DNA from: Sphaerolaimus hirsutus
Lineage: Eukaryota; Nematoda; Chromadorea; Monhysterida; Sphaerolaimidae
Assembly: GCA_964036195.1 (NCBI GenBank)
Contig: OZ038458.1
Coordinates: 13,095,832-13,159,831 of the forward strand
Reading direction: 5' to 3'
Length of the DNA stretch: 64,000 nt
This document shows, one piece after another, positions 3,441 to 32,719 of the stretch. Made by a program: the position numbers and the translations under genes. Every line of letters begins with the position of its first letter. Position 1 is the stretch's first letter. Below the pieces are notes generated by a model that worked only from the letters and a program-made list of their open reading frames with translations, was not told where the DNA came from and searched no databases.

Positions 3441-3552
3441 ACATTTAACGATTAATGGTGAACAATGACGTGAATTAATCGCCAAGATCGCCAAAGTTCC
3501 ATGAAATTTACAGACGCAATGCTCTGTGATCTTTTTAAAGCCGAGTTGCAGC

Positions 3553-3857: not shown

Positions 3858-3865
3858 GTTGCAGT

Positions 3866-5433: not shown

Positions 5434-5602
5434 ATACGGTATTTCCTCAAAATACAAAATATCCCCTTGAATTGAACCCCTCGAAATTTTAGATCCTTCG
5501 CGAAATTTCTGACGAAAATATAACCCCCGTCAAATGAACCTCCTCAAGATTTGCCGGCGAAATAAAAAACCACCTGGGTGTATTTCGAGGAAATGCGGTA
5601 GT
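5434..5602. mobile_element. CCGTATTTCCTCGAA-type element, degenerate
   Basis: The left end GGTATTTCCTCAAAATAC and right end GTATTTCGAGGAAATGCGGTA are inverted relatives. The interior carries the family words ccccttgaatt and ctggcgaaat. The copy is more diverged than those at 6710 or 16455. Confidence 0.6.
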
Positions 5603-7335: not shown

Positions 7336-8060
7336 AATATTACGACAACTGGGTGTTTCCCATATTTAGTATTATTTATCCGTGTTACAAAAGGAAAAAA
7401 TAGTCTAACACAATCACTGATTTGTCGGGAAAAACTAGGACATGCGAAATCTTAACAAAGAAAACGTTTGAAAGGCATAAAATCCGCATGACGGCACAGC
7501 AGTAAATACATAAGGGAAATTGTTTTTCTAAAACGTTTGAAACGTCAAGTGGATGAACATGAAATGAGGGGCGCATAAAATCACATTGAAACTGTTTTGG
7601 CTGTGCAAATAAATGCGACTATAGTTTTGAGAGAGGCCGCGTAGTGTCGGCGGCAAGGTCGATGTTGCATGTAATCGCGCTTTGATCGAAGGGAATGCGA
7701 AACGCATGGCACCAGAGATGGCACTTTCGAACTTGCCGTGATATGTATGATTACTCAAAAAATCATACTTTTTCTGTCACTGACGAAAATGGGGGTCAGT
7801 GAGTACCTGCCACAATACAGGTGCGTGAGCATCGCATTATCACCAGCCGTTTAGAAATCGCAAAAGTTGTTCCACCCGCACTTTTCACGCCTCATTGTGA
7901 ACTGGTGTTGACTGCACCCGGAGTTGAGTACAATGTGTCTGTATCTTTGTGTGTTTTGTGCCAGGAAAAACACTTTTTCGAAACGACAAAAAGAACAATG
8001 CGATCACGCAAATAAAATACGCAAATTTCTATTCCTTAGATACCGACTTTTCTCACCCTG
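7336..8060. other. No gene seen
   Basis: Ordinary AT-rich sequence. A moderately GC-rich minus-strand frame at 7530-7760 has no splice context or recognisable motif. Confidence 0.35.
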
Positions 8061-8228
8061 GTGCCAGTCCCAGACCCTGTAAAATGTCAAATGTCATGCA
8101 AGTGTCAAAAGTCATGGAAAATGCCCTGCAAAATGGCAACGGTTGCAATTTTGCAGGGCATTTTCCATGATTTTTCATAGTTTGCATGACATTTTACAGG
8201 TCATTTTTACAGGGTCTGGGACTGCCCC
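8061..8228. mobile_element. CWG-type inverted-repeat element
   Basis: The termini GTGCCAGTCCCAGACCCTG and CAGGGTCTGGGACTGCCCC are near-perfect inverted repeats. The flanks are CTG (8058-8060) and CAG (8229-8231). The arms repeat aaaatgtcaaatgtcatgc and ggaaaatgccctgc. This is one of the cleanest copies and a good consensus source. Confidence 0.85.
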
Positions 8229-8550
8229 CAGGTGACCGCAAATAACTGCAACACTAAAATACGTAATCATGCATCAAGTGCGCAACTGCGCTCACTCAAC
8301 ACAGCAACACAGCACAACGGCGCCAAGTGGCCGGGCAAACTTCACACTGATAGTGGACGCGTCGCAGACGAGGCACTTACAGCCGCGGTGGGCGCGGCGG
8401 ATAACGGTGGCCGCTGACGTGCAGAACGCACGCACAGTGTCCTTGAGGGACAAACTCTGAGACGGCTGGCGGGAACGCTCCGGGCAACGTCATACGGACA
8501 CTTTACTCGCCCAGCGCATATTGTATTAAACATATGAATACCTGTGTATT

Positions 8551-8750
8551 TACCATATTTCCTCGAATTACCCCCGGGGGGTATTTTTTCAGGGTGGAAA
8601 GTTTGAGGGGGACTTCTCATAGGGGGGTATTAATTCATAGTGGCGATTTTGAGGGAGACTTTTTCGAGGGGGTTATTTCGATTGGGGTATTTCTAAGGGG
8701 GGGTATTTCGAGGGCATATTTCGAGGGGAGTATTTCGAGGAAATACGGTA
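8551..8750. mobile_element. CCGTATTTCCTCGAA-type element
   Basis: The left end TACCATATTTCCTCGAATT and right end TATTTCGAGGAAATACGGTA are inverted repeats. The interior repeats ggggtatttcgagg variants. The open frame through it is repeat-derived. Confidence 0.7.
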
Positions 8751-9473
8751 AGTATCGTATTTGCATAGTTCAGCAAAGGTACGCCATGCCTGATTTCGGT
8801 CTTGTACAGCAGTATCGAGTATATTTTATGAGTTTTAGTTCAGCGTCTACCATGCATAGGTATTTATGTGTCGGCGATATTTATACATAAGTAAGGTAAG
8901 ACGCGCAAACGCTGCCGCCGATAGACGACGTCCTAACGATTTTACCATGATCCAAACTCAAAGGTGTAGCCAGTCAAACTGTGGAATGCGCAATTTATTT
9001 GGGTAGTTTAGTATGAACAATAATGATGGAATGTGACCGCTGGCGCTGTGTAAACCGAACTTTCCTAAATGAAATTTTCTCATCATTGGTGACTATAGTA
9101 CTGTAATTAAAATAGGTACCTAGAATCGAAGGGTGTTGATAACAAATCGATCTCGTGAATTGATGTGTTATTTCTGTATCGTATTGAATTGCTAAAACAA
9201 AACCTCGTTCTAGTGTTTTCGTTCGATGTGACTGGTCAGACTGGGGAACGCGATATATTCGTGGGTAAACGCCTATATTTATTGACATTCATCAATTTAA
9301 TCAACAATTTTATAAAATTATCGTATACAAAATGCACGGCTGCAAAAAGGCTCATGAGTCATTCACTATTCATTCAATCATGAACGGCAAAGGTGAAAAT
9401 GATCATTGCAATCGTATTTGCCAGTAGTTCTTCCATTGTAAACGGCATCAGCACAAAACGATCGAGGCGTATT
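8751..9473. other. No gene seen
   Basis: AT-rich, with short frames only and no repeat having paired ends. Confidence 0.35.
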
Positions 9474-9697
9474 CACCGTATTACCTCGAATTATTCCCCC
9501 ATCGAATTAACCCCCCCTCGAATTATTCCCCCATCGAAGAAACCCCCCTCGAATTATTCCCCCATCGAATTAACCCCCCTCAAAATGGGCTGGGGACATA
9601 ACAACCCCCCTCGAAATACCCCCCCCCCCCCCTTCGGAATGATGTACGACATGTACGTAATAAATACGTCATGTATGCAATGTACATGATGTATTTA

Positions 9698-10252
9698 TAG
9701 GGTGGCCCACGTCAGGTGCACGGTTTCAATTGGCTCCCAACACGTCAATTTTGAATGACAACTGCTCAAAGTTGGTATGGGGGTAGATAAATGTACCCCA
9801 TTTGTTGTGTCATGTGCACGGTTCCACCTCACAAAAATTGATGTCGGAACGTGAAAAAAGTTTAATACGTGTTTGATCGTGGCACATGTCAGGCAATCGT
9901 CTACCAAAGCACCAATTATTCATAAAAATAGTCCAAATTTGGCATGGCAGTAGATAAATTTACCCTATTTAGTATGTTAAGCACACACATAAATATCACT
10001 AAATTTTAACATTTATCACATTGTATGCAAAACAACGTCACTCCACAGGACCATCTACAATGGGACACATTCAAAAACGTAAATATGAAACTCTTTCACG
10101 TTCTGACACGAAATCTTGCGATATGAAACCGTGCACTTAACACAACAAATGGGGTACATTTATTTACCCCCATACCAAATACGAGCAGTTTTCATTCAAA
10201 ATTGATGTGTTGGGGACCAATCAAAACCATGCGCCTGACGTAGGCCACCCAG
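9698..10252. mobile_element. TA-type element, AGGGTGGCC ends (nested)
   Basis: The left arm (AGGGTGGCCCACGTCAGG, then the atgggggtagataaatgtacccc block) is inverted on the right (ttacccccatacc ... GACGTAGGCCACCCA). The arms exceed 100 bp. It interrupts the larger element at a TA, as the sister copy at 56.6 kb shows. Confidence 0.75.
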
Positions 10253-12187: not shown

Positions 12188-12621
12188 GTGCCAGTTCCGC
12201 AAGTGGAAAAGTTAATAGTTAAAAGTTAAAAGTTGAGTAAAATGACAAATGGCAAGTTAAGAGTAAAGTTAAATGATAAATGATTAGTTAAGAGATAAGA
12301 GTAAAGTTAAGAGTCAAGCAAGTGTATCAAAATCTTATTTTTCGTATCCAGATCTTATGTTTTTCTATCCAAACATTATGAGATAAGATAACATAAGATT
12401 TGGATACAAAAACATAAGATCTGGATATGAAAAACAAACATTTGGATACACTTGCTTGACTCTTAACTTTACTCTTATCTCTTAACTAATCATTTGTCAT
12501 TTAACTTTACTCTTGTCTCTTAACTCATCATTTATCATCTAATTTTACTCTTAACTTGCCATTTGTCATTTTACTCAACTCTTAACTTTTAACTCATATT
12601 TTCCACTTGCGCAACTGGCCC
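12188..12621. mobile_element. CWG-type inverted-repeat element, long arms
   Basis: The ends are GTGCCAGTTCCGCAAGTGG and CCACTTGCGCAACTGGCCC. CTG is duplicated at 12185-12187 and 12622-12624. The two arms, over 150 bp each, are built from repeats of agttaagagtaaagtta and their complement, around a centre with aacataagat. The transcript would fold into a long hairpin. Confidence 0.85.
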
Positions 12622-14429: not shown

Positions 14430-14754
14430 TTTATTTTTACTTTACCCATGATTCTGTTGTACTGTATTTATTTACGTAGTATTCTAAATCACCTAGGTAT
14501 TTTATAAATTTTTCTGTATTTATCAGCCCACGTCACAAGTTAATGAGTGACTTGCTTTCACTTTCTAATAACAGGTTTTGGCTACGATTCAACTGAAACT
14601 CCACCCACACAATGTCGTCAATCATAACACGTAGACAACAATTACATCCCCAATTAAAAGTATTCAAATTGGCGTTTACGACGGTCCAGCGCGATGCGTT
14701 TAAATAGTGACATTCAGGATAAGAGACCAGTCAAAAAGAAAGAATCCTTCGAGG

Positions 14755-15380
14755 ATGAAATACACAGCTGCGGTGGTTTTCGTTGCGGCGGTTGTCGCGC
14801 TGGGATCTGCGCAGTCTTCTGGGTTTTTGGTCGGTTGCCAAGTTTCATTGCGGTTGACAACTGGTAGCAAATGGAGTTGACGTGTCACAGAAACGCCGCT
14901 TCGAGTATCCACGTTGGGGCGACAGCGTCGGCGGCAGCATCAACCAGGTAAATACCACTTTTAAACTCTGAGAGAAAAATACAGCCCCCTTGAATAACTC
15001 CTCCCTTTTGAATAACTCCCTCCTCAAAAACTCTGACGAAAAATAACTCCCTGGAGTCTTCTTCAAGGATATATTGACGGTAATTATATTTTCTCTGCTT
15101 TTTTCAGAGAGGTTTAATTTTATTTTATTTCTTTCATTTTCTGAGATTAAATTTAATTACATTTTCTGATAAACACCCATTTTTGGAACGCTAATGACAA
15201 TTGGGGGGCGCGCAGGCCGGAGGCCCGTCCGGGGCGACGCAACACCTGCTGCTCAAGGCGGGCATGTTCGACCGGGCGGGCGCGGCCGTCGCCGAACGGC
15301 AGAGGATGCTGGCGGCTGCGTCGCGCGTCCGCAACTGCTTCCTCAGCCCCGCCCAGTGCATGGCCCTGGGGGAAATGTGA
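14755..15380 (+). CDS. Neuropeptide-type precursor with allatostatin-C/somatostatin-like C terminus
   Basis: Three phase-0 exons: 14755-14829, 14891-14947 and 15216-15380, encoding 98 residues. Exon 1 is a signal peptide (MKYTAAVVFVAAVVALGSA). Exon 2 opens with a basic site, KRRFEYPRWGD. Exon 3 ends RVRNCFLSPAQCMALGEM and a stop. The C-F-L-S-P-A-Q-C loop (Cys85-Cys92) has six residues between cysteines and the spacing of the arthropod allatostatin-C core R-Y-R-Q-C-Y-F-N-P-I-S-C, including R-x-R before the first Cys and Pro at the same place. Secretion and disulfide closure are inferred. No dibasic site sits directly before the loop; RQR (72-74) or Arg81 could be used. The first exon, if unspliced, runs into a stop. 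Intron 2 holds decayed inverted-repeat elements. Function as a ligand is inference from the motif. Confidence 0.7.
14948..15215. repeat. Intron 2 of the peptide precursor: decayed elements
   Basis: Contains a CCCTTGAATAACTCC-type fragment (about 14975-15081) related to the CCGTAT family. Next to it is a right-end fragment of the TAGCGTTC MITE (about 15085-15193, ending TTTTTGGAACGCTAA). Neither keeps both ends. Confidence 0.5.
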
Positions 15381-15738
15381 CTGACCAGCGGCACTCTCGT
15401 CTGCAACCTGCCCCGCTAGGCTGAAAAATGCGTGCTTTCCGCAGATTTCCCCGCAAATATTGCTGAAATATACCTAGGTACATATATATATAGGTATATT
15501 GAAAAAATCGGACACTGAACGCCGGTGCAACAAACTGCTATTTTTATCGTTCGTAAAAAGCTGTGTCATGCAATGAATGTTGAACTGATAGATAAACATA
15601 AATGATGAGTAGATATAGTCCGGTATTTATGAAGGTACTATCTAAACGGACATAGGTAAACCGATTACCCATTATTGACAATTTTGTAGTTTGTTCGAAC
15701 TTTTATGGCAGAACAATTTTAAATGTAGGTGAATTAAA

Positions 15739-15868
15739 TACCGTATTTCCTCGGAATACCCCCTCGAAATACCTCACATATAATACCCCCCCCCCTCGTT
15801 TAACCACGCTCAAAATTTCCACTCTGAAAACATAAACCCCCCGGCGGGTAATTCGAGGAAATACGTTA
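15739..15868. mobile_element. CCGTATTTCCTCGAA-type element, short
   Basis: The ends are TACCGTATTTCCTCGGAATAC and TAATTCGAGGAAATACGTTA around c-run/g-run words. It is a short deletion derivative of the same family. Confidence 0.7.
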
Positions 15869-16454
15869 GTCGTTTTTTAACGAATGTTGTGATTTGGTTT
15901 TCAAGTTATTTTTTATACCTATCAACATTTTCGGCAATTTTTTTTCTTCATATTTTCACATTTTTTCATTCAAAGCGTTAGTGAACTGCTTTTTTCATTC
16001 CCATCTTTTTGCCACACTCACGTTTCCCCATTCATATGCTTACCTAATTGAGAAAAAAATTCTTTCAAGATTGTACATCATTTAGGATAGTAGATAATAC
16101 ATATTTAGGATGCACTCGATTAAATTCGAAAATTTAGCCATTCCAGATCATTTTGATGCGTGGTTGAATCTGACCAGATCAACGTGTTTCACGGTTGTGA
16201 TTTTTACGCAGTAGCGAAAAGGGCGTAGTCGTTTTGTATTTCTGTAATATGCCGTATATCCTAGAAATACACCCAGGGGGTTCATTAATTCGTCAACAAA
16301 TTTTGAGGAACGTTTATTCGAGGGTGTTTTTTTTTCGTCAGAACTTTTCGTGAAGGACCGTATAGTAAAGAATATGCCTATACATACCCAAAACTGGTAA
16401 TAACTGTGACAAAACAGGGTATATTTGGACATATTATATATATATATACCTATA
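15869..16454. other. No gene seen
   Basis: AT-rich. A left-end fragment of the CCGTAT family (gccgtatatcctagaaatac, about 16252) with a decayed right side near 16365 is the only recognisable item. Confidence 0.35.
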
Positions 16455-16878
16455 TACCGTATTTCCTCGAAATATTGAACCCCGGGGGTGATTGTTTCAG
16501 AGTAAGAATTTTGAGGGGGGGTTATAAACGAGGGGGGTATTTCGAGGGGGGCTTATTATTTCGCCAGAATTTTTTTGAAATTCCAGTACTAAATTGTCGT
16601 CTGTAACGTACGCAGACGTAGAAAAATGCAACAATAACCGCTATATATAAGAGTCTATTGACGTACATAAGTGTGTAACGCTGTTCTAACGTAACAATTC
16701 AGCCGAATGACAAACCGCAGTTTTGTCATGTACGTTCTCTGTACACTCAATTTTTTTTTTTTGGGGGGGGGGGTATTTCGAGGGGGTGGGTAATTATTTC
16801 ATAGTGTCCATTTTGAGGGGGGGGGTATTTCGAGACGGGGGTATTTCGAGGGGGGGGGGGGTTCGAGGAAATACGGTA
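16455..16878. mobile_element. CCGTATTTCCTCGAA-type element, core-bearing subfamily
   Basis: The ends are TACCGTATTTCCTCGAAAT and CGAGGAAATACGGTA. The centre matches 14003-14429 and 6710-7157. A further fragment with a right end CGAGG/GGAGGAAATACGGTA follows at about 16980-17079. Confidence 0.8.
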
Positions 16879-17317
16879 GGTATGTATTTATATATCAACA
16901 CAAAGTAGTTTTTGTGTAGCCGCGATACAAATTGACAGAAATTTATACATCATGTACCTTGTCCATTACATTATTCCAGACGGGGGTATTTCGAGGGGGT
17001 TATTTTTCCTCAGATCGTTCAGACCTGGGGGTATTTCAGGGGACGTCAATTCAAGGCGGTAATTTGGAGGAAATACGGTATGTTATTGGTGCAAATAGGC
17101 CGCCGGTGACAGATCTGTCAGATAAGGTAGGTAAGTCGTAACGCAATTGCAAGAAGCCACATTTGAGTGTGTTGACACTGACCTGTTTAAACTCAACACG
17201 TGAAGATTTAAATGGGAATTGACAGGTGATTTTTCAAGGTTGCTCACACTTATGTTTAATTCAAGCTTTGGAGTAACAATGCAGTTATTTACCCTAAAGC
17301 AAAGTGTTGGGAATGTA

Positions 17318-18230
17318 CATGGTCTGGCTGAAAAGTCCCCGGGCAGTGCTCGCCATTCGCGCTAGGGGTAAGCTACGCTCATAAAATTTTGACACGTTAA
17401 CATATCAGGTGTTTTGAGTTCTCACCCAAAATTTCGCCCCTCTAGCTCCACCCATTGCGGAACTGCGGGGGTTCAATTTCGGTCATTTTGTACTGATGTA
17501 CAAATGGTGCTCTAGCTCAACGCTGCTTTAAGTTGTGATCAAGAAACTTTGGCTAGTGTAAGCCACCAGTGTTGGCAATGTGCCAGCACTAACCAACATT
17601 AGCTATGATATCATAAGCCTAGTTCATATTGTCATTACTGCCACTACTATCACTACCAAATTCAGCATTCTGCCTCTCCTTCTCAAAAAGTGGTTAATAC
17701 AGGATGCATTTTGCATGCACACTGCTGTTGAACACAGATAATGTGTCCACCACAGATTAGTAATGAAACATAGGGAAATTTTAAACACATAACTCACTTA
17801 CTGCACATTTCAAAACAACATTAAAAGCACTGCATTACACATGATCTCAGATGATCACCACAAATATCAATCACAGTTCCCACGTTTCTTGCACATCACC
17901 CTGATCTGCATATTTATTTTACCTTAATAGCAATGATGTTGATAAAAGTGTTGAATATTATCAGCACATTGCCAACACTGGTGGCTTACACTAGCCAAAG
18001 TTTCATGATCACAACTTAAAGCAGCATTGAGCTAGAGCACCATTTGTACATCAGTACAAAATGACCGAAATTGTAACCCCCACAGTTCCGCAGTGGGTGG
18101 AGCGAGAGGGGTGAAATTTTGGGTGAAAACTCAAAACACCTGATATCTTAACGTGTCAAAATTTTATGACCGTAGCTCACCCCTAGCGCGAATGGCGAGC
18201 ACTGCCCGGGGACTTTTCAGCCGGACCATG
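17318..18230. mobile_element. Long-terminal-inverted-repeat element, TA target
   Basis: The left arm begins CATGGTCTGGCTGAAAAGTC and the right arm ends GACTTTTCAGCCGGACCATG. The arms are about 270 bp (17318 to about 17590 and about 17960-18230) and include the shared tract ccaccagtgttggcaatgtgc. TA flanks both ends. The central 370 bp has no coding frame, so it is non-autonomous. Confidence 0.85.
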
Positions 18231-19671
18231 TAAGGATGTGAGAAATCACACATGTGATATGAATGTTTGTAGTTTGTGTGATGAATGTGAGATTTGAAGT
18301 GTGAACGTAACAGTGGGCAGTGCCATTTGATAGGTGGAAGTCTACTCTAAGAAAAAGTTTTATCATAATTCCTCTCATAATCAATCATTATATTGTGCTT
18401 TGGGTTACAGTTTTGGATAAGCACTTAAAATATTCCCCACACTCTGCTACATCCAAAAAATACCTAATACTCGTGTAAAAAAGATAAGAACGCAGAGAGA
18501 ACAGCAGTAATTAAAGAACTGAGATTTTCCATTTACATTTGCTAAAACAGTCTGAGAGGAAGTTATTTACTTGGGTGTCCAAACAGCAGAAAATGTTTAT
18601 GGGGTAAAAATATTTATGTGTATACTAGACTTGTACCTATGTACCTACACACTGAATGGTAATTCCAAAGTTTGGATTATATACGTAAATACAGAGCGAG
18701 TTCAAAAAATTGAACACCATTTCCCAATAAATACTGCCGCAAGTTTATTTTTTTTTTTTCAAACGCAACTGCTCATTTTTTGTCTGTAACTATCGGATTA
18801 GTCGCTTGACACAGTTAATTTTCACTTTTTATTTCATAGGCCATAAAGAACTGGTGCGTAGGGCAATGGCACATATTTTCACGAGCTCCGGCAAATCTGC
18901 GCATTATTGCAGGCATCACAATAAACTGAATTGAATTCTTAACGCACGACGCTCATTTTTTGACAAACGAAATCCTTCGAAGTGAATCATGAACCCGCAA
19001 CAAACACGTTTCAAGCAAACACCGGATACCAACGTGTGCGCTGTTTTAATAGCTCTGGCTCCTCTGCATCTGTCGAGAAAATCTTTCGCCTTTTACTAAA
19101 GATTTCCGTGCAGAGGAGCAATTTATGAGTGTTACACTCAATTTTTGGGATCCCAACACCTCGTTGGGATTTGCATTTGGAGGTTGACGCCTTGTTTCGT
19201 TTTACGCGAGTTGTGACGAACATAATCCATGTGAATAGAGCGGGCTTGAATCTCACTGGTGCCTTGTTCTCTAGTAATTTGAAATTCATTTATTAGAAAA
19301 ATACATGCAATGCCATCAGGTAAAAAATGTTCCTTGTCCAATAATTTATATTTCTTTGTGTTAAGAGATGGCGACGGGACACTTGCGCGTCACCATGGAA
19401 ACGCGAAATGAAACGAAATGAAGTGCCATTGAAGTAATGAACGTCCGCGTGGATTTAATAACGGGTATCTGATACAACAGGTTACATTGCGAGCTTGTAC
19501 ACTTGTAAATATAATCGCTAAGCTTACCGGTCAAAGCTAAATTACTGTTATTGTGCGAATGTCCTGCGCACGGAACGGAAACGTCGTAGCTGCGAAGTAT
19601 TAGTCGAATGAGGACACTCAGGAGTGAATCCTGTCCAACAAACACAACCTAAACAAATACAAAACCCCAAA
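18231..19671. other. No gene seen; upstream region of the next gene
   Basis: AT-rich with chance frames. The last few hundred bases presumably hold the promoter and 5' leader of the gene at 19672, but no diagnostic motif can be named. Confidence 0.35.
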
Positions 19672-20940
19672 ATGTACCCGCAAGTGCACCAACCAATGGG
19701 GTACCCACCGCACGCGGTGCCCATTCCTCAAGATTGGCAAGGACCGACGCAGCCAATGCCGAACTACGGCTACCCGTACAATGGCGTCGGCCCGCCGCAG
19801 CAGTGGCACCCTGGCGGCGGTGCGATGCCGCAAATGATGGCACCTGGTTGCCAGTCAGGTCAAGGCCAGTGGCCGGCTCAGCAGGTGCCAGTTCCGCAAA
19901 ATGAGGAGTGAGAAGTGAAATGACAAAGGCGAAGTGAAAGCGCAAAGGCCAAGTGAAATGGCAAAGGCGAAGTGAAAGCGCAAAGGCGAAGTGAAATGGC
20001 AAGTGAATTGGCAAAAGCGAAGAGAAATTAATTTTATTGTTTTACTTTTTAATTGCTTCGCCTTTGCCATTTCACTTCTCGCTTCTCATTTTGCGGAACT
20101 GGCGCCAGGTAATGCACCCGCCGCCCCAGTGGCTGGCTGCACAGAGGCACTTGGACATGTCCGCCAGCATGGGCTACATTCCACAACACCATTATGTGGA
20201 CAGCAACGGAATGATAGACCAGCAGACTGGGATGGTCTGTTATTACTGTGATTGTGAATTATGGAGGTTATAAAATGTCGTATTAAACGCAGGCTATGCG
20301 CAAAGTACCCAGTGCGCCAGAACTTCAACACTGGGTGAACGAGCCAGAGCTCATGGCAACAAAACACGTTGACCAGAGTGAAAATGCACCGCCAAACTAT
20401 CAAAGGGCGCCGCCACCACCACGGCCTAGACCAGGGGCGGCCAAAATCCACGTGCTGCCGTCGCCGCCACTCCGCGCGCCCGCACCGAACAAAGTCGAGG
20501 CGTCCGCAAACGTGGAAATCTCCACCATGGTCGTAACAACGATCCACATGCTCGTACTCGCCGTGTTGTCGCTGAGGGGAGTCTATATATTTGTGCGATA
20601 CTTCGGACAGAACTCATACTTTCCAGCCATGTTCTACGTGCTGCAGGCAGCTGGCATGCTAATGATAGCGTTTGACATCGCCGACATCGTGTTCATCAAG
20701 AGCAGGATGTACAAAGGTCTTATGATCAGCGTGTTGACATTCAACATAGTGTACATTATGCTTGCCGCTTACGGTTTATATGGAACCATCGAGACGATAG
20801 TTATGTACTTTTCCTATGGTCACTTCTACACTGAAATTATTTGGGTTGTGGGCTATTTTGTGGAGCCAATTTTGACCGTGGTGTCTTTTGCGCTAAAACT
20901 AGCTGTACTGAAAAAGTGGAAATCGTCTATTCATCCGTGA
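19672..20940 (+). CDS. Proline-rich four-helix membrane protein
   Basis: Three exons, all phase 0: 19672-19884, 20109-20234 and 20293-20940, encoding 328 residues. I do not recognise a named family. The first 190 residues are rich in Pro, Gln, Gly, Tyr and Met (MYPQVHQPMGYPPHAVP, APPPPRPRPG), typical of a cytosolic disordered tail. Four hydrophobic helices follow at roughly 192-216, 227-247, 255-282 and 296-320. The protein ends with a short basic tail (KKWKSSIHP). Acidic residues occur in helix 2 (FDIADI) and the third loop (TIETI). Intron 2 is a compact 58 nt. Intron 1 (19885-20108) is an inverted-repeat element; unspliced, the frame would end eight codons later (VPVPQNEE, stop), while splicing joins CAG-CAG to GTA-ATG in frame. 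Confidence 0.75.
19885..20108 (+). mobile_element. Introner-like element: a transposon that is exactly an intron
   Basis: The element 19885-20105 starts GTGCCAGTTCCGCAAAATGAG and ends CTCATTTTGCGGAACTGGCGC, a near-perfect terminal inverted repeat. CAG precedes it (19882-19884) and follows it (20106-20108). The 5' splice site GT is the element's own first two bases. The 3' splice site AG is the duplicated CAG. The empty site reads CAG followed by GTAATG, an ordinary exon junction sequence. The arms repeat aagtgaaatggcaaaggcg and its complement, so the transcript folds back and brings the splice sites together. Use of these exact splice sites is inferred from frame restoration. Confidence 0.85.
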
Positions 20941-21074: not shown

Positions 21075-21795
21075 TAGTGATGGAATGGCGCCATTGGTAC
21101 TCTTTTTATGTGGCGCCTGGCGCCCACATTCTGAAAGGCGCAATGGCGCCCTTGGCGCCTGACGCACTGCTTTAAAAGGGCGCCAAAAAGGTGCCAGCAG
21201 GGTGTCAAGGCGAGTGCTGTGTAAATGAAAAAATAAATAAAAAACGCATGTGGACAATTGAAATTCGCCAGAAAAATGGACTACCTAAGTGGTGCGAGTG
21301 GGTGGAAATCTTTTGTCCAACGGTTCATCAGATGTGTCTGACGGGTCAGAAGAGTAGAAGACAAGAATGATGGACCGTCGAACTTGCAAAATTATAAATA
21401 AATGGATTCAAATCGTTGCAATTCCGTTTTGGTCCATTTTAAGGAAACATCGATTGGAAAAGTCTATTTGAAGCGAATGGATTGTTGTCAAATGACAATT
21501 TCCATTGTGTTTGAATTCATCATGTGGTTTTTATAAAAAAATTTTGTTGCTAGTGGTGTTTTTGTTCATTACATTCTGTAGAACGAGAATTAAGAAGTGA
21601 ATGTGTGTACCACGGTGCTGTAGCAACATTTTTAGCACATGCAGGGTGTTGTAGGCACTTATTTATCCTGGCGCCCTTGGCGCTTGGCGCCCTATTTTCC
21701 AAATGGCGCCATGGCTTCCTTGGCGCCCTCTTTCCGTGGCGCCCACTTTCCGAATGGCGCCTGGCGCCCTCTTTTCTGGCGCTTTTCCATCACTA
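21075..21795. mobile_element. hAT-like MITE, TAGTGATGGAA ends, GGCGCC arms
   Basis: The termini are TAGTGATGGAATGGCGCC and GGCGCTTTTCCATCACTA. They are flanked by a perfect 8-bp duplication GTCATGTG (21067-21074 and 21796-21803). Unlike 13354-13587 it keeps about 400 bp of non-repetitive centre (21200-21600), which may be closer to a founder copy. Confidence 0.9.
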
Positions 21796-21803
21796 GTCAT
21801 GTG

Positions 21804-22417
21804 TAAGAAGACATAAATACTGTGTTATGGGCTTGTATGTGTACTGGGACCCTCCGTCAGAATGCCATGGCGGCATGCCATTTTCAGTGTCATAAAATCA
21901 GAATCACCACATCTAGAAATAAATCTTCTCATGAAAAAAGATTGCTTTATTTGACAGGATAAATCATTTATTATTTCGTGTAAATATGAATGGAGTAAAG
22001 TAGTGACAGTAAAAATTGCAGTGAAAAATTGAAAGTAAGCATCAATGTTTGACAGTTTATATAATATAATATTATCCATGTGTGAGAGAACTGATTGACT
22101 ATCTTTGCCTTGCCCTAAATTCATCAAATCAATTTAAATTCTTGAGTGGCCAAAGTTTCGAAATTTTATCGGATTGTCCAGTCTGCAACACAAGGATAAG
22201 GAATACTGAAATCGTTTCCTTGATAATCACTGGCTGTATCAAAACGCATACGTTATCCAGAACTAACGCACAAAAGAAATGAAAATTAATGCAATATAAA
22301 TATGCGTGAGTATACTCAATTTCACAGTCCACCGTCAATTATAATTGGCCCAGTAACTGCGCATCGGCTCAACTGTATGGTGTGAGGGGATGCGGTAGAA
22401 TGGCGTCACACACACCG
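21804..22417. other. No gene seen
   Basis: AT-rich, chance frames only. Confidence 0.35.
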
Positions 22418-22788
22418 GATGTCAACTGGTTTCGGTGTCAACTCGATTTTAGTTCAATTTAGGTCGCAGGGCAATTTTCAAGTGCACATGCGGCAATGTC
22501 GAAAAGGATTAAATATTGCCACGTGCATTTGAACATGGTTTCACAACCAATCAACTGAAATCTAAATGGATACCAGTCAGCCCAGTTGACATCGGGTTTC
22601 ATTGTCATCAGATGTCAACTGAACTGAATGGTTTCCATCAAGATTTAAGTTAATGGGTTGCAAAACTACGTTCAAATGCACATTGCAGTATCAATTCTAT
22701 TCGGACATAGCCGCATGCACACTTGAAAACTGTCCTGCAACCTAAATTTAACTCAAATTAAGTTGACACCGAAACCAGTTGACATCCA
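22418..22788. mobile_element. Inverted-repeat element, GATGTCAACTGG ends
   Basis: The left arm GGATGTCAACTGGTTTCGG, ggtgtcaact, caagtgcacatgcgg is mirrored by ccgcatgcacacttg, agttgacacc and CCGAAACCAGTTGACATCC. Related tgtcaac/gttgacac arms occur at 43330-43745. Confidence 0.7.
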
Positions 22789-25424
22789 GTTTGTAGCGCC
22801 AATTAAAACTATTCATTTCCAGTCGACAGGTTTACTCAATCTTTGACACAACCAGTGATGAGACCCTACACGGTGTATTTATGTATTTATTTGTGCGTAT
22901 ATATGGTAATGATTATGAAGACATGTGAAGCGCAACTAACCCAAACATAGTCAGACTAAACAGTTTACAAATACAGACGACGGCCAATTGCACTACACAA
23001 TGAGCAGAATGACAATGATTTTTCTAAATAAAATTCTGACGGCTAAACAGGATCGAACTAGCCCTAATGCAAAAAAATCCTTGAATGACAATAATCACAA
23101 CGAATAATCACAGCAGGACAACAATTAGCCGGGGTACAGGGAAAAGGGCACCGATGTATAGGACGAACATGAACAAGTTGTGCACTGAAACGCAGAAAGT
23201 AGTCAGTGCGTCCACATTCTGTCCATGAGTATAAATAATTTATTTTTATCAAAAGTGTAGGTAAATAGTCATGTGAAGAACAGTTTTTGCATTTAAAAAA
23301 TGATGACGTCTTTTGATGTCACTGCCCTGTCCAGATAACACATAAGGCCATGAAAATTGGTCACGAACATAATTTTCCATGTTTCCACTGATAAATTACA
23401 ACAACTGTGCCGGTTTGTCACTCACATGACCAACTACCACTAGCATTTCATTACACGTGAACGGAAAAAAGTGGGTCCTTTCTAACTGATGGTAGATACT
23501 TATTTTCTGCTTGCTACCATTTACCGTGATTGGAGCAATTTAAATACAGTGCAAGCTAAAGTTTAAGTAGACAGCCAGCGCCGTTCAGCTTCCGGCCATG
23601 GGGGAAGTTAGGTTGGGGCACTGCAGATTGAAACACAACTTTCACCGTACATTACCAAGCTTTGTAAAATTTGTGAGTATTTTAAGTATTTTGTCACTTA
23701 TTTTAACAGCCAATCAGTGGTAAAAAATTTCCTCGTTCAGCCGATACACTGAAAATTGACAACGGATAACCAAACGATTTAATTGAAATTTTCCCCGGAA
23801 TAATGGGACAGCGTGCTTTTCGAGCAATCGTTTTTATACTGTAACTTCCATCATCAATTCAATTCCGTTAAAAAATACAAGCACACGGTCACCTGTAAGC
23901 ATTTGCACGTAGGACATTAATTTGCATAAATACTTATGCAAACGCGCTAAGCTGGTGGGATGGCAAATACTTACAGTGAGAACGGATATGGCTGTGCATA
24001 ATGTATTTATGATATCATAATCTGTGCAAACAATCACGACAGAGGAAGAAATTAGCCACAGACTTCCCATTTTTCATTTCGCATACTCCGCATAATTTAG
24101 TTGACCTCAAATCGACAAGAAATTACCACGCACCCCACTCCTGCATAAAAATTCGAACTGCGATCGCATTTTCAGCACAGAAACTATAAATCCAAGATGC
24201 ATGTTGCCCTTAGCTACAAAAAATATGCAGTTGGGCAGGAATTAACTGGCTGAATGGCCCATAATTTAGGCCATATTCTAAAATTCTTCCAAACTGCTGG
24301 TATGATATATTATCTTCCCTCTTCCAGCAGACATCCCACAACCAACTAAATCCAGCTGGGAGGCTAACATGAATTTTGATTTGAATTATTTGAATTACAA
24401 AGCACAGAAAAATCCACGCTGCAATGGCATACATTATTCACAAAGTACCTGCCCATGTATTCCGGGTTTAAGATGGGTAAACAATGAAACTAAGAATGAT
24501 GACAATAAGAAAGAAAATGAAGGTAGTTTGACGCAATCAAAAAATCGGATATGCAGAGAATGTTCAAGAGGCTAGCATCAGAAATATGCACACATTGATT
24601 TTAGTTTTAAGTTGTCATTCCCTGATTATCCTCTACATGAATTGACTCATTCACAGTAAGCAACGAATTACGTAGGGTTGCAAGTTGCAACCATTTTATT
24701 TTTTGTATCTAATCTCGAGCATTTTTCGATATTGAATATCGAAAATAAGGAGAAAAATCGACACCAGAATAGGTATCATTTTTAAAGAAACATTGAATAT
24801 CAATATCGAAAAGTAATATAATACAGTTGCAACCATGCGCATATCCACTCTGGGAAGTGTCAAAATGGGGAAGAAGCACTAATGGCGGACCGTTTTTCAC
24901 CCATTTGCTAATTCGGGCGGCAAAAAAATGTCAAGCTAGAAACACCACCCAACAACTTGTGAATACAAAAACAAGATGAGCAAAGTGGGTTTGAGTATAG
25001 GCCTTTCCCTCAAACCCACACATTAATGAAAAGTCAGGAATGCAGACACCCAAACACCGGAAAACCCAAAGACCACGGCGCCTACAAAAAGAGCCATTGG
25101 ACTCATGCCAACAAAAGTTTGAGGTCCATTTGAACACTGCAAACATTAGGTCCATAAGAGAGGAAAACGGGGAGTAAATATTTTTGAGATGAAAAATGAC
25201 ATAAAATGTGATGGAGGGGTGAAGCGAGGGTAGTGTATGGTAGTAACTGCGTGGTAGTAGCGGTAAGGAACCAAACCTACTCGGATAGGAACTAGGTAAT
25301 GTTGTACTTATTCATCTCAGAAGTGGGTCAACACACACAGCAAAGTCAATTAAGCAGCAGCTGAACGGCGGTGACAAAATGACCCACTTATGGTGCAAAT
25401 AATTGCAATTAAGCACATTTGTAG
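22789..25424. other. Long stretch without a supported gene
   Basis: About 2.6 kb of AT-rich sequence. I checked the open frames here for splice context, signal peptides, Cys patterns and recognisable domains and found none. It may contain 3' or 5' untranslated sequence of unannotated genes. Confidence 0.35.
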
Positions 25425-25868
25425 TAGGGTTCAAACGATACAGCGGTATCGATACCAAGAAACAAAAACAATGGTATCGGTTTAAAAAACAGAGAGTAAA
25501 GATATCGGCATCGGAAAAAGTGAGAATCTCATGTTTCGAAAAGAAACCTGATGTCGTATTTAAAAAATCAAACATTTTAAAAACTGAATTGTTTTCGCCA
25601 GTGGATTACCGTTTTTGCAGACAGGCTTATGTTTTTCATTTGCTTTGGTAATTTGACAACTCAGAAAACATTTTCTAAATCCAAATCCATAATTTATGCA
25701 TATAAATATTTGGATAGCAAATTGGATTTGAATTTTTACACAAAAAGTGCATATCGTGCGAAAGGAGTCTTAATATAGGCCCCGTCTTAGTATTGGGAAG
25801 GATATTTAAGTCCTAAAAAATTGAAATGGCAGTATCGGTATCGAAAAGCCAGTATCGTTTGAACGTCA
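25425..25868. mobile_element. hAT-like element, TAGGGTTCAAACGATA ends
   Basis: The left end is TAGGGTTCAAACGATAC. The right end, ATCGTTTGAACGTCA, has lost its final consensus. A perfect 8-bp duplication ATTTGTAG flanks it (25417-25424 and 25869-25876). The arms iterate ggtatcgatacc-like words. Confidence 0.8.
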
Positions 25869-26061
25869 ATTTGTAGGAATAATTGTCAGCGTGAGTGCAA
25901 CCAGCTCTACATGCCGCAACTTCCGCAAATGGCACAAATGCGCAAGCAAAGTGGATGACAACGATGAAAGCCAAACAGCGCCGCGGCTTGGTCAGAACAC
26001 ACTCACTGGCATCGGAAATTGCAGTGCCCGTACATTGCGAAAGGGGGCGCAAAAGAACCGG

Positions 26062-29000
26062 TCAGAAGAAAGGCTGCTGGGCTGCGCCGGTGGCCGGGGC
26101 GGCCGTCTGCCACGTTTGCGGCGGGAACGGGTTCATCTGCGTGGGCACTACCGTTTAAACGCATGTGCTCAGCAATGAGTGAAATGAAAAATGAAATGAA
26201 ACGGTCACGTTTGAGTCCTATTTTCTGGTAGCTGAAAATTTCCATCTTTCAATTTTCAATTTCGGAAGGCAAAAGTTTTACGTTTCCATTTTCCAGTGGT
26301 CAAAATATTTTTACCATTCTATTTGGTTTTCTTTGGAAAATAAAACTGTTTTTTATCTTTGCATTTTACAGCAGCAAATTTTGTTGCCTTCCCATTTCCG
26401 TTTCATTTTCAGAAGATGAAATTTTTATCTTTCCGGTTTTCGGTGGCTGAATACAGGGGTCTCCAAGATTTTGGCCCTCGCGGGGGTTGGATAGATAGCA
26501 AATCGGGGGGGGGGGGGGGGGCTGGGGGGGCTTGGGGGGCTGGCGGGGGCACAATATATAATAGGCTTTTTCAAGGTTAAGAAGGCAGAAAGGGGAAAAA
26601 ATCGCTAATAATCAGTTAAAAGTAGCCAAAAGTAGCTTTAAAATGGCTCAAAATAGGTATATAACCATGTATATAGCCGGAAAGCACGAAGGTGAAAACC
26701 TATAAAATGGTGCGAAAATTAGTTATTTTGAGCGAAAGTTGGGGCAAAATTTCTGAAAAACCACTCCAGATAGATAGCTGAGCAATTTGGGGGGGGGGGG
26801 TCTTTGGGGGTAGTAGCCAAAAGTTTGGCCTCGGGATAGATAGATAGCTGAGCGGCCTCCGGGATAGATAGATAGCTGGCCGATTTGGGGGGGCAGCCCC
26901 CCCCAGCCCCCCCTAGGAGACCCCTGGCTGAATGAATACCTTTCCGTTTGTGATAATTTCCGGCAAGTGATAATGTTTTTACCTTTCCAGCAGCAATTTT
27001 TTTACCTTTCCATTTTCTGTAAATATTTTCACACCCTAGCTCCAGCTCCAAATGGTCAAATAAGCCCAAATAAAGAGAAACCCACTTGGTGGGCGGCAAA
27101 CGGTTGCGCTCCCATAGCAGAGCCGCTGTGCTGCGGCCAGTACGGCTGCATCATGGGATTGGGGTTGTGCTGCGGCGCCGGTCCCGCCGCGCCCCACCCG
27201 CCGTAGTAGTTGGGCGTGGGCGCCACGGGGGCCGGCACGGTCGACTGCGCCATCGGACCGCCGCTGCGCCCGTGCGACGCGGACGGCGAGCTGCGATAGA
27301 AATGAACTGTTGGAATGGGACACATAGGTTTGGAAATAAACTTTTTTTTAAACAGCTGGATTTTTTCGGATCATTTTTAAGGATCAAAATAGGCTTTTTA
27401 GAAGTGAGCTTGGACGTCATAGTGGCTAAAAAAAGACAGCTGGGGGACACCGCTAAAGTTAGGTGAATTTTTAAATTCATGATTTAAAGAAAAACTTCCG
27501 GTAGAACAATGCCGACCATCCCTAAATTGACCAGTGATTAGAAAAAATCAATTGTTATTTGTATTTTAAAGATTACAACGAACAATCAGAGGCGACCACG
27601 ACAAAAGTGTTCAAATCGCAATGAACAAACAGGTGCGCGCGCTGGTTCTTGTCCTTCATGTCCAAATTCTGCACGAGGCTCATGAGAGACGTGTCCAAGT
27701 CGCTCGTGAGCAACTTCCCATTAGCGGTCGTCTTGGGCTGGCTCGCCGCGTTCGACGGCGACGGCGGCTGCGCGCTGCCGCTCATGGCCGACCGCTGCGG
27801 CTGCATCGCGCTGCTCAGACTCACGCCCGAGGGTTGGTTGAAAGCGTTGCCGAAGTCCGCCGCGAAGCCGGTGCCCGTAGTGCCGCCGTTTGGATATCCT
27901 GTAAGTAAAATTTGACATGTTTTGGGCAGATCGTAGGTACTCGCGTGAAATTGAAACCCAGCTGTTCCTGACGCCTCGTGTGGCGATAAAAAAACTTCAC
28001 GATTGCGAAACCATCGACCTTTCGTGAAATGATTCATGAGCAGTCAAAGCACGCACAAAGACATCAATACATCAAAGAAGCTACACTGACCATCAAACTG
28101 TTGCTGGGAGCTCTGCGATTGCGGCGCGGCCCACGACTGGTTCCCCTGCTGCACTTGCTGGTTCTGCGACAGCATGGCTGCAAAAGGGTTATAAGCTTGG
28201 TCGGCGGCGCCAGCCATTTCAAACTGGCCGCCGGTAGCGGTGGCTGGACGGCTGCCACTGTTGGCCGCCCAGTCGTCGCTCAGCCCCAGCAGGTCGTCGA
28301 TGGCGCTGGCGTTCTGCTGGCTAGGTGCCGCGCTGCTGCTGGACGTGGTCGAGCCGGATGGCGTCCATGCAGATGATTCCAGCTGCGATCGGATTACGTG
28401 GTGCGATGGCATCACTAGGGTCGGTTGGATTTGATTCAACCGTTTGAATGTCTAAACGCTTTATAAAACAAGGTGACATTGAAAGAGACACGAACCATTA
28501 CTACCTAGGGTTGGGACGATATATCGTATCGAATATCGACTGTTTTTTCATATCGAATATCGATATCGAAAATTTTGAAAAAATATCGAATATCGATATC
28601 GAATATCGACCATTTTTTTCGATATTATTCTATATAGACCCCTTCCCTGGCCTGACTTAAAATGTGCCAGGAATGGCACTGTTAGAAAGTGATTTTGTTG
28701 GAAATTTTCAAAAAATTTGTGCCCAGGCGCATGCTTTGTCGTCACATGACAGGTATGTCCATTTCAGCAGTTGCAAACACCTCAAATGTTGTGAAAATGC
28801 ACTCACAAATGTCCACATCAGAGTATGTGCCACGGCGCTGGCACAACGCTACATTTTCGTTACTACATCAGTCAAATTTCAGGGGGTGGGGAGAATTTAT
28901 GTTTATTTTATGTAAATTTGTATAATCTACTCTTCAGTAAGGAGATGATTAACCTGGTTTGTGACCAAATGGAAATACAAAATGACACTGAAGTACAAAT

Positions 29001-32000
29001 AACAAGTAACAAAAGTAAAATATCGAAATATCGATATCGAATATCGAGCATATTTTCATATCGAATATCGATATCGAATATCGAGGGTCCATATCGTATC
29101 GATATCGAATATCGAGTGTCAGAAAAAAATATCGAATATCGAATATCGATATCGAAAAGTCATATCGTCCCAACCCTATTACTACCCATGAAAAGGTGCA
29201 AGTAAACATCACAAACCGATTCAGGGATGTGCGCAGCCACGTTCGCAGCCGTATCGTCGGCAGCCTTGGATCGCGCTTTCAACATCTCCAAGTACCTACA
29301 AAAGAGATCCAACAGTCACGATGACAAAATTCCCCCATCACTCAAAAAATCCAGACCCATACACCCACATAGGAATGGCCGATGTTTTTGAACCGTCTTT
29401 TTTAATGTCATTTTTCAGAAAGACAGAGGCATCGAAACCGTAGTTTTTTATTATAAAAAACACCAGCCACATTTTTTAGTAAATACTTGTGCACTAGGAT
29501 TAGCCTTCTCTTATAACCTTATTTAAGCACTATTCCATGCCAAACTTCACTTGAGTCGCAAACATCCGACAAAAGGCGATATGCATAATGAGTCGACCTA
29601 AAATGGATATTTTTGACAGAAATATCCACTTATAATGCTATCCCATTGCTCCACAGCCATTCTATGGCTATATTTTACATCACAAAGTACTGGTACTTGT
29701 CTGATATACCTGTATGCTGTTTCATAACCAAAATTGGGAGCTTTTAAAAAAGACAGTCTTTTAAAAAAATGTCTTAAAAAAGACAGGTCGTTTAAAAGAC
29801 ATTTTTTCCATCCCTTACACCCACACTGACCTAGCTTCCTCCTCCAAATACCTCCTTTTGGTATCATCATCCAAATTCAGACTGTCACCCCTGCCCCATC
29901 TTTGCTCCCCGCCCTCTGCAGCAAACCGCTGCGGGGCGACATTGGCGCTGTCATTTGCAAAAGCGGCGGCGGCGACTACGGGCGCGACGGGCGGCACTTT
30001 TCCGCCCTCCAGCGCGCACAGGTGTCCTTCGAGTGCGTCCATGAGGCTGCTGGGTGCGCGCGATAGGTCCGGGATGTCGCCCTTGTCGATGCCCACCGAC
30101 TGTGATGGGCACGGGTGATATTTAAACGTCTGTTAGAATTTGGAGTGTGCTAGGCCGGGTATTCCACATTCACCAAGTAAGAACGGTGATAAAATGTATT
30201 TAGCAAAGTAGTACTTCCTGACATATAGTTCTCACAACTTCCATGTTAAATACAATCTTATCTGTCATTCATTAACATCACCCCTACTTCCATTATCATT
30301 TCAAAACAATTAATATTTCTTTTTACTTGTCAGTTGACAAAGTGCCAACCAGTATTGTGAAACTCACTTCAGCCACTTTGAGAAATTCAGAGACGCCATC
30401 CATTCTGGAAACAAATGCTTTGTACAGCGTCAGTGCCTCGCGGCATTGCTTCTTGTTCATCTCGAAATATTTCTCTGAAAAAGTGAAATATATCAGTCAA
30501 ATTCAAATTTTCCTGCGGCTTAGATGAACTCACCGAGCAAGTTGATAATACCATCATTGTAACAGGCAAAAAGCCTGATCATGTCGCGGAACATCAGTAT
30601 GAAAGCGCTGTTGATTACACCATTCGTGAGATCGTCGGACCGGACCTGCGGTCGATAATAACGATTAGTCACAATGAAAAAGAGGGAGTGACTAGGGTTC
30701 GAAAAACGTATTTTTAAATTTTTTTAAAATGCCTCCAATTTAAAAAACCAACTAATCTTTTGAAATAAAAACCGTGATTTGAAAAATTCAGATTTTAAAA
30801 AAAATCAGTTGAAAAGAATCAAGTGCTATCCCTAGAAGCGACATTTAACAAACCTTGAATTCGAGCAAAGCAACAATTTGATTTTGCAGCACAGGAATCG
30901 TCTTCAACAACTGAAATGGAGAAAAAGCAAATGATAAGCCATTTTCGTAACAACACAAAAACATTCCTCTCAGCTCACATTATCAGTGCCCATCGTCCTA
31001 AACATCCCGTCCTCCCTACCACGTTTCACCTTGCAAAAATCGTAGGCCATTTTACGGTATGCGTTCGTCTTTTCGGTAATGTATTTTCCATACTGCCGCA
31101 CGTGCGTCGACATATCCAAACCTGTGACAGAACGAATGGTGTCGACCAGTGATGTAAAAAGCGCCGGGGCTTTAGCGCCAAGCGCCATGGCGCTTTTCTG
31201 ACCCCAGCGCCAAGCGACAATGGCGTAAATGGCGCCAGGCGCCAAGGCGTTTTTTGCTTTGGCGCTAGCGCCAGGCATTTTGTTTTTGACACCAAAAGCG
31301 CCATGGCGCGTTTACTTCACTAATGTCCACTTTCTACAGTGACCAAAGTACAGTGAAAAATTGCACTTGCCAGCGGCAGATGATCGGTCTATGAAATCAG
31401 TAACATCCATACGAGCATTACAAGATGCCAAGTACTGCATGAAGCGCTGTAAAGTTGGCGGGGAAATGCATTTTTGGTGCAATATCGACATTCACAAGCC
31501 TGTTTGTTTTGAATTTTGTAACGTGATAAAATTTTGGGACAGATAGCGCAGTTTTGGCTTAAAGCATAAAACATGCTTACGGACACCCTGAGCTTTTCTG
31601 AAGCTAAATATGAAATCTCAAATAGTTTTGTCTTACCATTGACTATAAAAAGTTGCTTTTGATCACAGGGACGTATCCAGGATTTTTGATCGGGGGGGCT
31701 GTTTGTTTACGGAGGCCGGCGAGCGGGGGGGGGGGCTCAGCCCCCCCCCCTAAAATTTTACGTATACAGGGGCGGAATGGCGCCATGGCGCTGGCGCCAT
31801 TAGTAGGCGCAACGCCATGGCGCCATTGGCGTTGGCGCCAGCGCCTTGGAACGCTGTATATGTATGTAAATATACATACAAATACAGCAAACAGCACACA
31901 ATTGAGCATGTTTGTAACGATTTCGGCCACAGGGAACAAATCTGTAGATAATACATCACGTTTGGTGAAAAATGCGCGCTTGCGCGCAAAATTTTTTTAC

Positions 32001-32719
32001 GCTGACGTTGAAAAAGTGCCATTTTCCGGTCACTTTTTTGTCTCAGCCCGGGAGGGGGGGGGGGCTGCAGCCCCCCCCGCCCCCCCCCCCCTGGATACGG
32101 CCCTGTTTGATCACAATAAAGTTATATGGAAAGTATCGGCATCGTGCCAGATGCAAGGTGCCATGGTGCCTTTTCAGACACTTTCACTTAACTGCACTCG
32201 ATTTTCATAAAGTGACATACAGAAATGATATTTTGACAGCTTCCCTTCCAATTGAAAATAAACTCAACGCAAAGTAATATAGTACATCTGATTGGTAAAT
32301 CAAAAAATGTATAATTACCTCATTTCCATAGCACATAAGATTGTGCATCGTAATCAGTGATTTGAATACAACGGCCCAATGCTCACTGTGAGTCCTCTCG
32401 ATTAATAAGTTTGCCAAGTATGGAATATTCACATTCGGCTCATGGGTACAATGCAACAAGTCTGCAAATCAGGTGACTTTTAAAATGTTTCACTGCAAGT
32501 GACTTCTGTTAATTAACCTGGCGTAAATGAGATTCTAAACTAACAATCGAGATGCTTCTTTTTCGGTCCTATAAACTCCTCAGTGGTCGCCTTGCACACG
32601 ACCTTGCCGATCTGCGAGCCGGCGATAGTGAACTTCGCAGAGTTCAGCCGGTCGTTCAAAGTCTGCCCGCCGGTGGAGAAGGGCAGCGGGTTGTGCAGGA
32701 AGTTGCCGCTGCGCTGCAT
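26062..32719 (-). CDS. PICALM: AP180/PICALM-type clathrin assembly protein (UNC-11 family)
   Basis: Thirteen exons in consistent phase: 32719-32545, 32461-32319, 31446-31371, 31121-30979, 30910-30854, 30645-30534, 30474-30368, 30099-29831, 29295-29217, 28382-28091, 27898-27631, 27290-27086, 26136-26062; 666 residues, close to human PICALM. Residues about 19-290 form the ANTH domain, which binds PIP2 through [14 protein letters not shown] (43-56); other family blocks are [37 protein letters not shown] and [16 protein letters not shown]. The Ser/Gln/Ala-rich tail has a DLL clathrin-type motif (417-419), NPF at 452-454, and NPF again at 644-646 for EH-domain partners. These proteins recruit clathrin and cargo at the plasma membrane, including synaptic vesicle endocytosis. 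An in-frame TAA just upstream fixes the ATG; an 18-residue N-terminal extension is unusual. Intron 3 has a GC donor. The exon 11-13 joins are the least certain. Confidence 0.93.
26454..26926. mobile_element. hAT-like element, CAGGGGTCTCC ends
   Basis: The ends are CAGGGGTCTCCAAGATTTTGG and CCTAGGAGACCCCTG. The flanks GCTGAATA and GCTGAATG form an 8-bp duplication with one mismatch. The interior carries ggatagatagcaaatcgggg-type words and G runs. It lies in the last intron of the AP180 gene. A related partial copy is at about 37440-37840. Confidence 0.8.
28506..29178. mobile_element. hAT-like element, TAGGGTTGGGACGATAT ends
   Basis: The ends are TAGGGTTGGGACGATATATC and GTCCCAACCCTA. A perfect 8-bp duplication TTACTACC flanks it (28498-28505 and 29179-29186). 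Both arms are arrays of atatcgatatcgaat. The middle (about 28635-29010) is unique. It fills most of AP180 intron 9. Confidence 0.9.
29370..29817. mobile_element. hAT-like element in AP180 intron 8
   Basis: The ends are TAGGAATGGCCGATG and TTCCATCCCTTA. A perfect 8-bp duplication CACCCACA flanks it (29362-29369 and 29818-29825). The core (ataatgctatcccattgctcc, catccgacaaaaggcgatat) is the inverse of the core in 34975-36323 and 38035-39560. Removing it leaves an intron of about 80 nt. Confidence 0.85.
30693..30834. mobile_element. Short hAT-like element in AP180 intron 5
   Basis: The ends are TAGGGTTCGAAAAACG and AATCAAGTGCTATCCCTA. The flanks ggagtgac/gaagcgac match at 6 of 8 positions. The interior is poly-A/T words only. 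Confidence 0.65.
31147..31322. mobile_element. TAGTGATG-family MITE in the GC-AG intron of AP180
   Basis: The ends are CAGTGATGTAAAAAGCGCC and GCGCGTTTACTTCACTA. The flanks gtgtcgac/atgtccac match at 6 of 8. The interior is a ggcgcc/agcgcca array. Intron 3 (31122-31370) would be about 65 nt without it. Confidence 0.7.
31666..32105. mobile_element. hAT-like element, CAGGGACGTATCCAGG ends
   Basis: The ends are CAGGGACGTATCCAGGATT and CCCTGGATACGGCCCTG. A perfect 8-bp duplication TTTGATCA flanks it (31658-31665 and 32106-32113). A GGCGCC-rich patch at about 31768-31860 may be a further insertion. It lies in AP180 intron 2. Confidence 0.88.

Follow-up and report, generated by a model that had tools for sequence, protein, structure and literature searches.

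The origin of new introns is a long-standing question, and the locus described here poses it in a concrete form: has a transposon that entered a coding exon become an intron, with its own edge as a splice site? The window, that is, the whole stretch of DNA that was analysed, is 64 kb long with a GC content of 41.8%. It carries three tandem Ground-like domain genes, two recognized by Pfam matches of fragments and the third by its similarity to those two, together with genes for cytochrome c1 and for a PICALM/AP180-type ANTH protein. The Ground-like domain is typical of nematodes, and judging from these genes the host is likely nematode-like.

Several features of the surroundings may be recorded here. 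The Ground-like array (42900–49012, plus strand) consists of three small genes, two of them with acidic or glycine-rich spacers, with foldback elements in between. The cytochrome c1 gene has a 5.4-kb intron (34912–40287, plus strand) containing several repeats, and the PICALM-like gene has a probable GC-AG intron (31122–31370, minus strand; CTG/GCAAGT...CACAG/GT, slashes marking intron or element edges) whose removal joins conserved residues in frame. A U5 spliceosomal snRNA gene (19050–19170, plus strand; 95.2 bits, E 1.7e-15) lies about 500 bp upstream of the interrupted gene, and a tRNA search found none.

An inverted-repeat element within a CAG codon

On direct reading, the element, designated E6, is a 221-nt inverted-repeat sequence at 19885–20105 (plus strand), starting with GTGCCAGTTCC and finishing with GGAACTGGCGC, and is flanked by a CAG triplet on either side (19882–19884 and 20106–20108). 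Its arms (19884–19934 and 20056–20106, 51 nt each) are 92% complementary. The motif GTGCCAGTTCC, with at most one mismatch, is found at seven sites in the window, two of which are E6's own ends, against 0.93 expected.

E6 interrupts a gene on the plus strand that looks like a membrane-protein gene; its N-terminus is rich in Pro and Gln, and its last exon is long and has hydrophobic stretches. Its predicted exon 1 (19672–19884) is an open frame of 71 codons from an ATG and ends in the left CAG, and exon 2 (20109–20234, 42 codons) begins right after the second CAG. It is followed by an ordinary intron of 58 nt (20235–20292, GTCTGT...ACGCAG), placed by frame continuity, and by exon 3 (20293–20937), whose 215 codons lie within an open frame of 217 and include probable membrane-spanning stretches. 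No Pfam family scored above its cut-off for this gene (best DUF6264, 17.5 bits against 31), and no relative of the exon 3 protein was found in viral contigs.

If the element is retained, the frame from the ATG at 19672 meets a TGA at 19909, eight codons past the left CAG, and stops are present in all three sense frames of E6; the downstream exons are open nevertheless. Joining 19672–19884 to 20109–20234 gives a single open frame of 113 codons. Because the frame is bound to be restored when the element and one target copy are taken out, this continuity speaks for an insertion into an exon and not for splicing. The first-pass annotation had described the same element between its two CAG triplets, the in-frame joining and the early stop, and its coordinates and all of these statements were right.

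That exon 2 is coding is suggested by its codon score of +0.30 bits per codon in the frame predicted by excision (−0.41 and −0.52 in the other forward frames), on a noisy measure that spans −0.52 to 1.01 in leave-one-out scoring of 14 training pieces. Of 5,129 open 126-nt windows taken from outside annotated genes, 56 scored at least as high, as did 3 of 756 windows of similar GC content; these comparison windows overlap, and the training set comprises 17 exon pieces from the same 64 kb. Exon 1 scored +0.25 in its own frame and +0.14 in another. The score of exon 3 was 0.00 in its own frame (−0.47 and −0.32 in the others), so the call of this exon rests on its open frame.

The inverted repeats, the CAG on both sides, the CWG flanks of related elements described below and the coding-like exon 2 in the frame predicted by excision make it almost certain that a CWG-targeted miniature inverted-repeat transposable element (MITE) has inserted into a coding exon, at a CAG codon that was copied in the process. 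In an orthologue free of the intron, the site would read CAGCAGGTAATG.

A CWG-flanked, NuwaI-like family

E6 is not alone in the window. Terminal motifs adjacent to CWG occur at 28 sites (6, 1, 10 and 11 with 0, 1, 2 and 3 mismatches), and the mean of 20 simulated sequences was 0.00, 0.05, 0.70 and 4.45, respectively; these counts are descriptive, the patterns having been picked after the elements had been seen. Eight members with two recognizable ends, 149–434 nt long, could be delimited: besides E6, these are E1 (414–601), E2 (605–783), E4 (8061–8228), E5 (12188–12621), E7 (42931–43079), E9 (46415–46610) and E13 (52056–52308), all seven given without strand. CWG is present on both sides in seven of the eight, while CWG triplets make up 2.8% of the window. 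Five have identical flanks, namely CAG on both sides for E1, E2 and E6, and CTG on both sides for E5 and E9; E4 is flanked by CTG and CAG, E7 by CAG and CTG, and E13, with ATG and CCG, has no CWG. Partner ends of E3, E10, E11 and E12 were sought, and none was clear (E11 reached a score of 23, shuffled sequences at most 21).

Two properties of these elements bear on splicing. First, GT stands at exactly one end in seven of the eight members (E1 has none), with GC or GG at the opposite end, and the GT end of E6 faces the upstream side of the gene. Second, the right arms of E5, E6 and E13 contain no AG for 203, 81 and 154 nt, respectively, when read on the given strand and for 146, 160 and 107 nt when read on the opposite one, compared with 5–16 nt in five control palindromes. 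The other five members have no long AG-free arm, save E1 on one strand (83 nt).

Further observations concern the repeats themselves. E1 and E2 share a CAG and form a tandem (CAG-E1-CAG-E2-CAG, 411–786), as if one had inserted into the duplicated target of the other. The elements at 8061–8228 and 42931–43079 constitute another subfamily, whose ends are CCAGACCCTGT(A/T)AAA and which carries inner GTAAAA-like and TTTACAG motifs that are splice-site-like inside the element and not at its edge. Palindromic repeats with other ends (for example TGTCAACTGG), outside the CWG family, were seen at 22410–22794, 36908–37152, 43333–43744 and 63202–63372. In database searches, a 23-mer from the element interior gave no match, a 19-mer of the terminus matched four prokaryote records among genome contigs, and a 15-mer of the terminus matched at least 120 stretches in viral contigs, which were judged from the pattern length to be chance matches.

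The first-pass annotation knew of no description of this particular family, with its CWG targets and its ends; however, in the passages of PMC4482050 on this group, CWG target duplication is the published hallmark of NuwaI, a member of the PHIS superfamily (PIF/Harbinger, ISL2EU, Spy, Pangu and Nuwa). The same passages give NuwaI inverted repeats of 12–61 bp that usually start with GGG, autonomous copies that encode a PIF/Harbinger-type DDE transposase and a Myb/SANT protein, and an occurrence in 16 animal genomes, of which 12 belong to bony fish and the others to a beetle, a crustacean, a mollusc and an anthozoan. The family described here shares the CWG duplication, the 51-nt repeats of E6 fall within that length range, and GGG is found at one end of E1, E4, E5, E9 and E13. 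It differs in that the ends of E6 begin with GTG and GCG, that the scanned stretches of the window held no transposase, and that the NuwaI hosts given in those passages include no nematode. Translations of 1–10000, 14501–19500, 21501–26500 and 52501–62500 in all six frames gave no Pfam match, and those of 26501–32500 (minus strand) and 39001–42000 (plus strand), each in three frames, yielded no transposase. Since E6 is short, has inverted repeats and a target duplication, belongs to a group of several copies and was found to be non-coding (a check made for E6), it is likely a MITE-sized copy of a CWG-targeted, NuwaI/PHIS-like family.

Candidate splice sites at the edges of E6

If the host tolerates E6 because the transcript removes it, the 5′ splice site would be the first bases of the element (GTGCCA, 19885–19890), whose GT stands directly behind the target CAG. 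The 3′ splice site would, with less assurance, be the duplicated CAG (20106–20108), the first AG past a pyrimidine-rich right arm, so that in the exact case the intron would equal the element plus one target copy.

To score these sites, donor and acceptor weight matrices were built from 21 introns modelled in the window (10 in PICALM, 5 in cytochrome c1, 2 in Ground-like genes, and 3 and 1 in two membrane-protein genes), with known sites scored leave-one-out. The introns were placed by homology, except for the last ones of PICALM and those in membrane-protein genes, for which frame continuity and eye were used. The element-edge donor scored 2.15 bits within a range of 0.29 to 10.1 for known donors, only one of the 21 being lower, and the duplicated-CAG acceptor scored −0.74, below all 21 known acceptors (−0.71 to 9.95).

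We then ranked all 245 removals that preserve the open reading frame, with the gene's own second intron out of training, which shifts the scores slightly (the edge donor to 2.5 bits). The edge donor is part of the top-ranked option, with the acceptor at 20292 (12.08 bits), and of the fourth, with the acceptor at 20129 (7.87 bits); it recurs in 3 of the top 25, the third time with an acceptor at 20144. The exact excision of the element plus one CAG ranks only 43rd. The donor proposed in the first-pass annotation thus figures in the best-scoring option even though it is weaker than 20 of the 21 known donors, and the edge of the element probably serves as a splice donor.

The choice of acceptor is more delicate. 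The element may supply just the 5′ splice site and form part of a larger intron, with 19884 joined to 20293, thereby skipping the 42 codons of exon 2, or to 20130, thereby losing 7 codons. Both outcomes are in frame, both belong to the high-ranking removals given above, and their acceptors (9.58 for 20292 and 5.37 for 20129) beat that at 20108 (−0.99). On the other hand, 20109–20234 scores as coding, so that skipping it would cost the protein, and the AG-free tract favours the duplicated CAG: it is the first AG after 82 AG-free nt (20025–20106, counted up to the AG of the duplicated CAG), a length reached or exceeded upstream of about 3% of window positions, whereas known acceptors are preceded by 12–72 nt (median 36, n = 21) and those at 20129 and 20292 by just 19 and 24 nt. 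The 37 nt upstream of the duplicated CAG are 68% pyrimidine (known acceptors 41–70%, median 57%), and the exact intron would span 224 nt, near the median of 208 nt for the 21 introns. Splicing from the edge donor to an acceptor elsewhere appears rather unlikely to us. The claim that the transposon is exactly an intron therefore stands as an insertion with a candidate donor at its edge, while its acceptor half is challenged by the low score of the duplicated CAG, its rank and the better AGs downstream; an intron made up exactly of the element and one target copy is a tentative proposal that falls somewhat short of even odds. The odds for edge-donor splicing and for the exact intron overlap with those for an edge donor joined to another acceptor.

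A different arrangement is suggested by the sequence CAG/GTAATG at 20106–20111, which as a donor scores 4.44 bits, more than the element edge. If this were the ancestral donor of an older intron (20109–20292), E6 would merely sit at that intron's 5′ edge, and other introns of the window have the related donors GTAATT and GTAATA. This would render 20109–20234 non-coding, against its codon score and against its GC content of 0.571, which compares with 0.328 for 20235–20292, and it would leave aside the strong donor of the second intron, at 20235 (7.47 bits when that intron is kept out of training). We consider an older intron highly improbable.

The RNA of E6 is predicted to fold into a very stable hairpin (−124.3 kcal/mol, z −11.35; none of 200 shuffles as stable) whose stem pairs both candidate splice sites and may either bring them together or hide them. 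Together with the weakness of the splice sites, such a hairpin would fit a recent, unspliced insertion that breaks this allele or gene copy. In ungapped comparison, the arms of E6 are the best matched (46/50; E13 45, the other six 14–33), as expected of a young element, and an insertion too young for downstream decay would leave the frames open, so that a fresh break would look identical. Yet there is a GT donor precisely where the element was inserted, and in gapped alignment the E6 arms (50/56) are not the best of the eight, which makes the youth of E6 uncertain. Insertions into coding sequence are also usually purged by selection. A broken gene is, in our judgement, unlikely. Programmed DNA removal was also considered and dropped, since nothing at the locus bears on such removal.

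We return to splicing from the element's own edge. The stop upon retention, the open downstream exons, the edge donor in ranks 1 and 4, the AG-free tract and the near-median length favour this reading; the donor weaker than 20 of 21, the acceptor weaker than all 21, the rank of 43 among 245, the better CAG/GTAATG donor and the hairpin weaken it. Weighing these, we put at roughly 50% the probability that the element inserted and has been tolerated through splicing from its own edge, with the duplicated CAG as acceptor or with the AG at 20129 (21 nt on) or the next intron's acceptor at 20292 used instead or as well, all of them in frame.

One candidate in the window

E6 stands in an exon and bears the marks of DNA transposition, as is characteristic of an introner. 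None of the 21 other modelled introns has inverted-repeat edges (at best 12 of 20 positions, compared with 19 of 20 for E6). Since an introner needs recurrent intron creation and the window gives no further case among 21, no intron-making family is demonstrated; one candidate is insufficient for an introner family. Of the label "introner-like element" in the first-pass annotation, the transposon-like exon insertion remains, along with the edge as a candidate donor.

That annotation had also proposed counting copies whose edges equal introns, and within the window the others, E8 apart, lie elsewhere. E7 (some 24 nt into intron 1 of a Ground-like gene, 42907–43136, placed by eye), E12 and E13 (inside intron 51880–52360 of a minus-strand gene) are located inside introns and not at their edges, on gene models made partly by eye. 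By eye, the intron holding E11 belongs to the third Ground-like gene, a minus-strand gene probably has E1 and E2 in one of its introns, and no host gene is evident for E3, E4, E5, E9 and E10.

E8 is ambiguous in this respect. This family end, CTG/GTGCCAGTTCC, with an arbitrary right limit (45253–45300, plus strand), is positioned at or just inside a phase-1 intron of a Ground-like gene, and its edge (CTG/GTGCCAG at 45253) looked at first like a second, independent edge donor. We rejected it: the edge donor scores 0.86 bits as against 4.75 for a donor at 45226, also in phase 1 (phases by eye), the far end was not found (score 23, shuffled maximum 22), and a paralogue next to this gene carries an intron of phase 1 at a similar position (by eye).

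Comparison with known systems

Introners made by DNA transposons were reportedly described by Huff et al. in 2016. In C. elegans, the DNA transposon Tc1 can be removed by splicing from exons in which it resides, imprecisely and at cryptic sites. E6 resembles Tc1 as a DNA transposon in an exon of a nematode-like host that may be removable by splicing, and differs from it in that its own edge is the candidate donor. The likeness to DNA-transposon introners is closer, as edge and duplicated target would give the splice sites, inverted repeats and short target duplications are common to both, and the proposed removal preserves the frame.

Introners that carry a 5′ splice site and co-opt a 3′ site are described in section 7 of PMC9860276. 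In the passages of that source on their distribution, introner families range from 5 to over 2,000 copies in a genome, whereas a single, sequence-based candidate is at hand here; as far as animals and land plants are concerned, this 2022 survey found introners in two groups only, both of them animal, with copepods being named. In the copepod Eurytemora affinis, many lineage-specific introns have unusual GA or GG donors that follow AG, and the main text names no transposon source (PMC5714493); the candidate donor of E6 likewise follows AG but is GT. For ten Caenorhabditis species, 168 RNA-confirmed gained introns are given in the passages of PMC9169325 on intron gain, which name no transposon source. 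Among the matches listed in a search of titles and abstract beginnings of open-licence literature, no introners were reported in nematodes or from NuwaI.

How a NuwaI-type group might generate introns can nevertheless be outlined. With CWG targeting and GT at one end, a correctly oriented insertion into a CAG of the coding strand would rebuild CAG/GT...CAG/, AG-free right arms such as those of E5, E6 and E13 would make the target copy the first AG, and the target preference would itself be a proto-splice site. That such a group generates introns in this nematode-like animal is improbable on the present data. If E6 is not spliced, it is an ordinary MITE insertion; if it is, a transposon that prefers the exon side of a splice site as its target would provide a simple rule for which insertions become introns.
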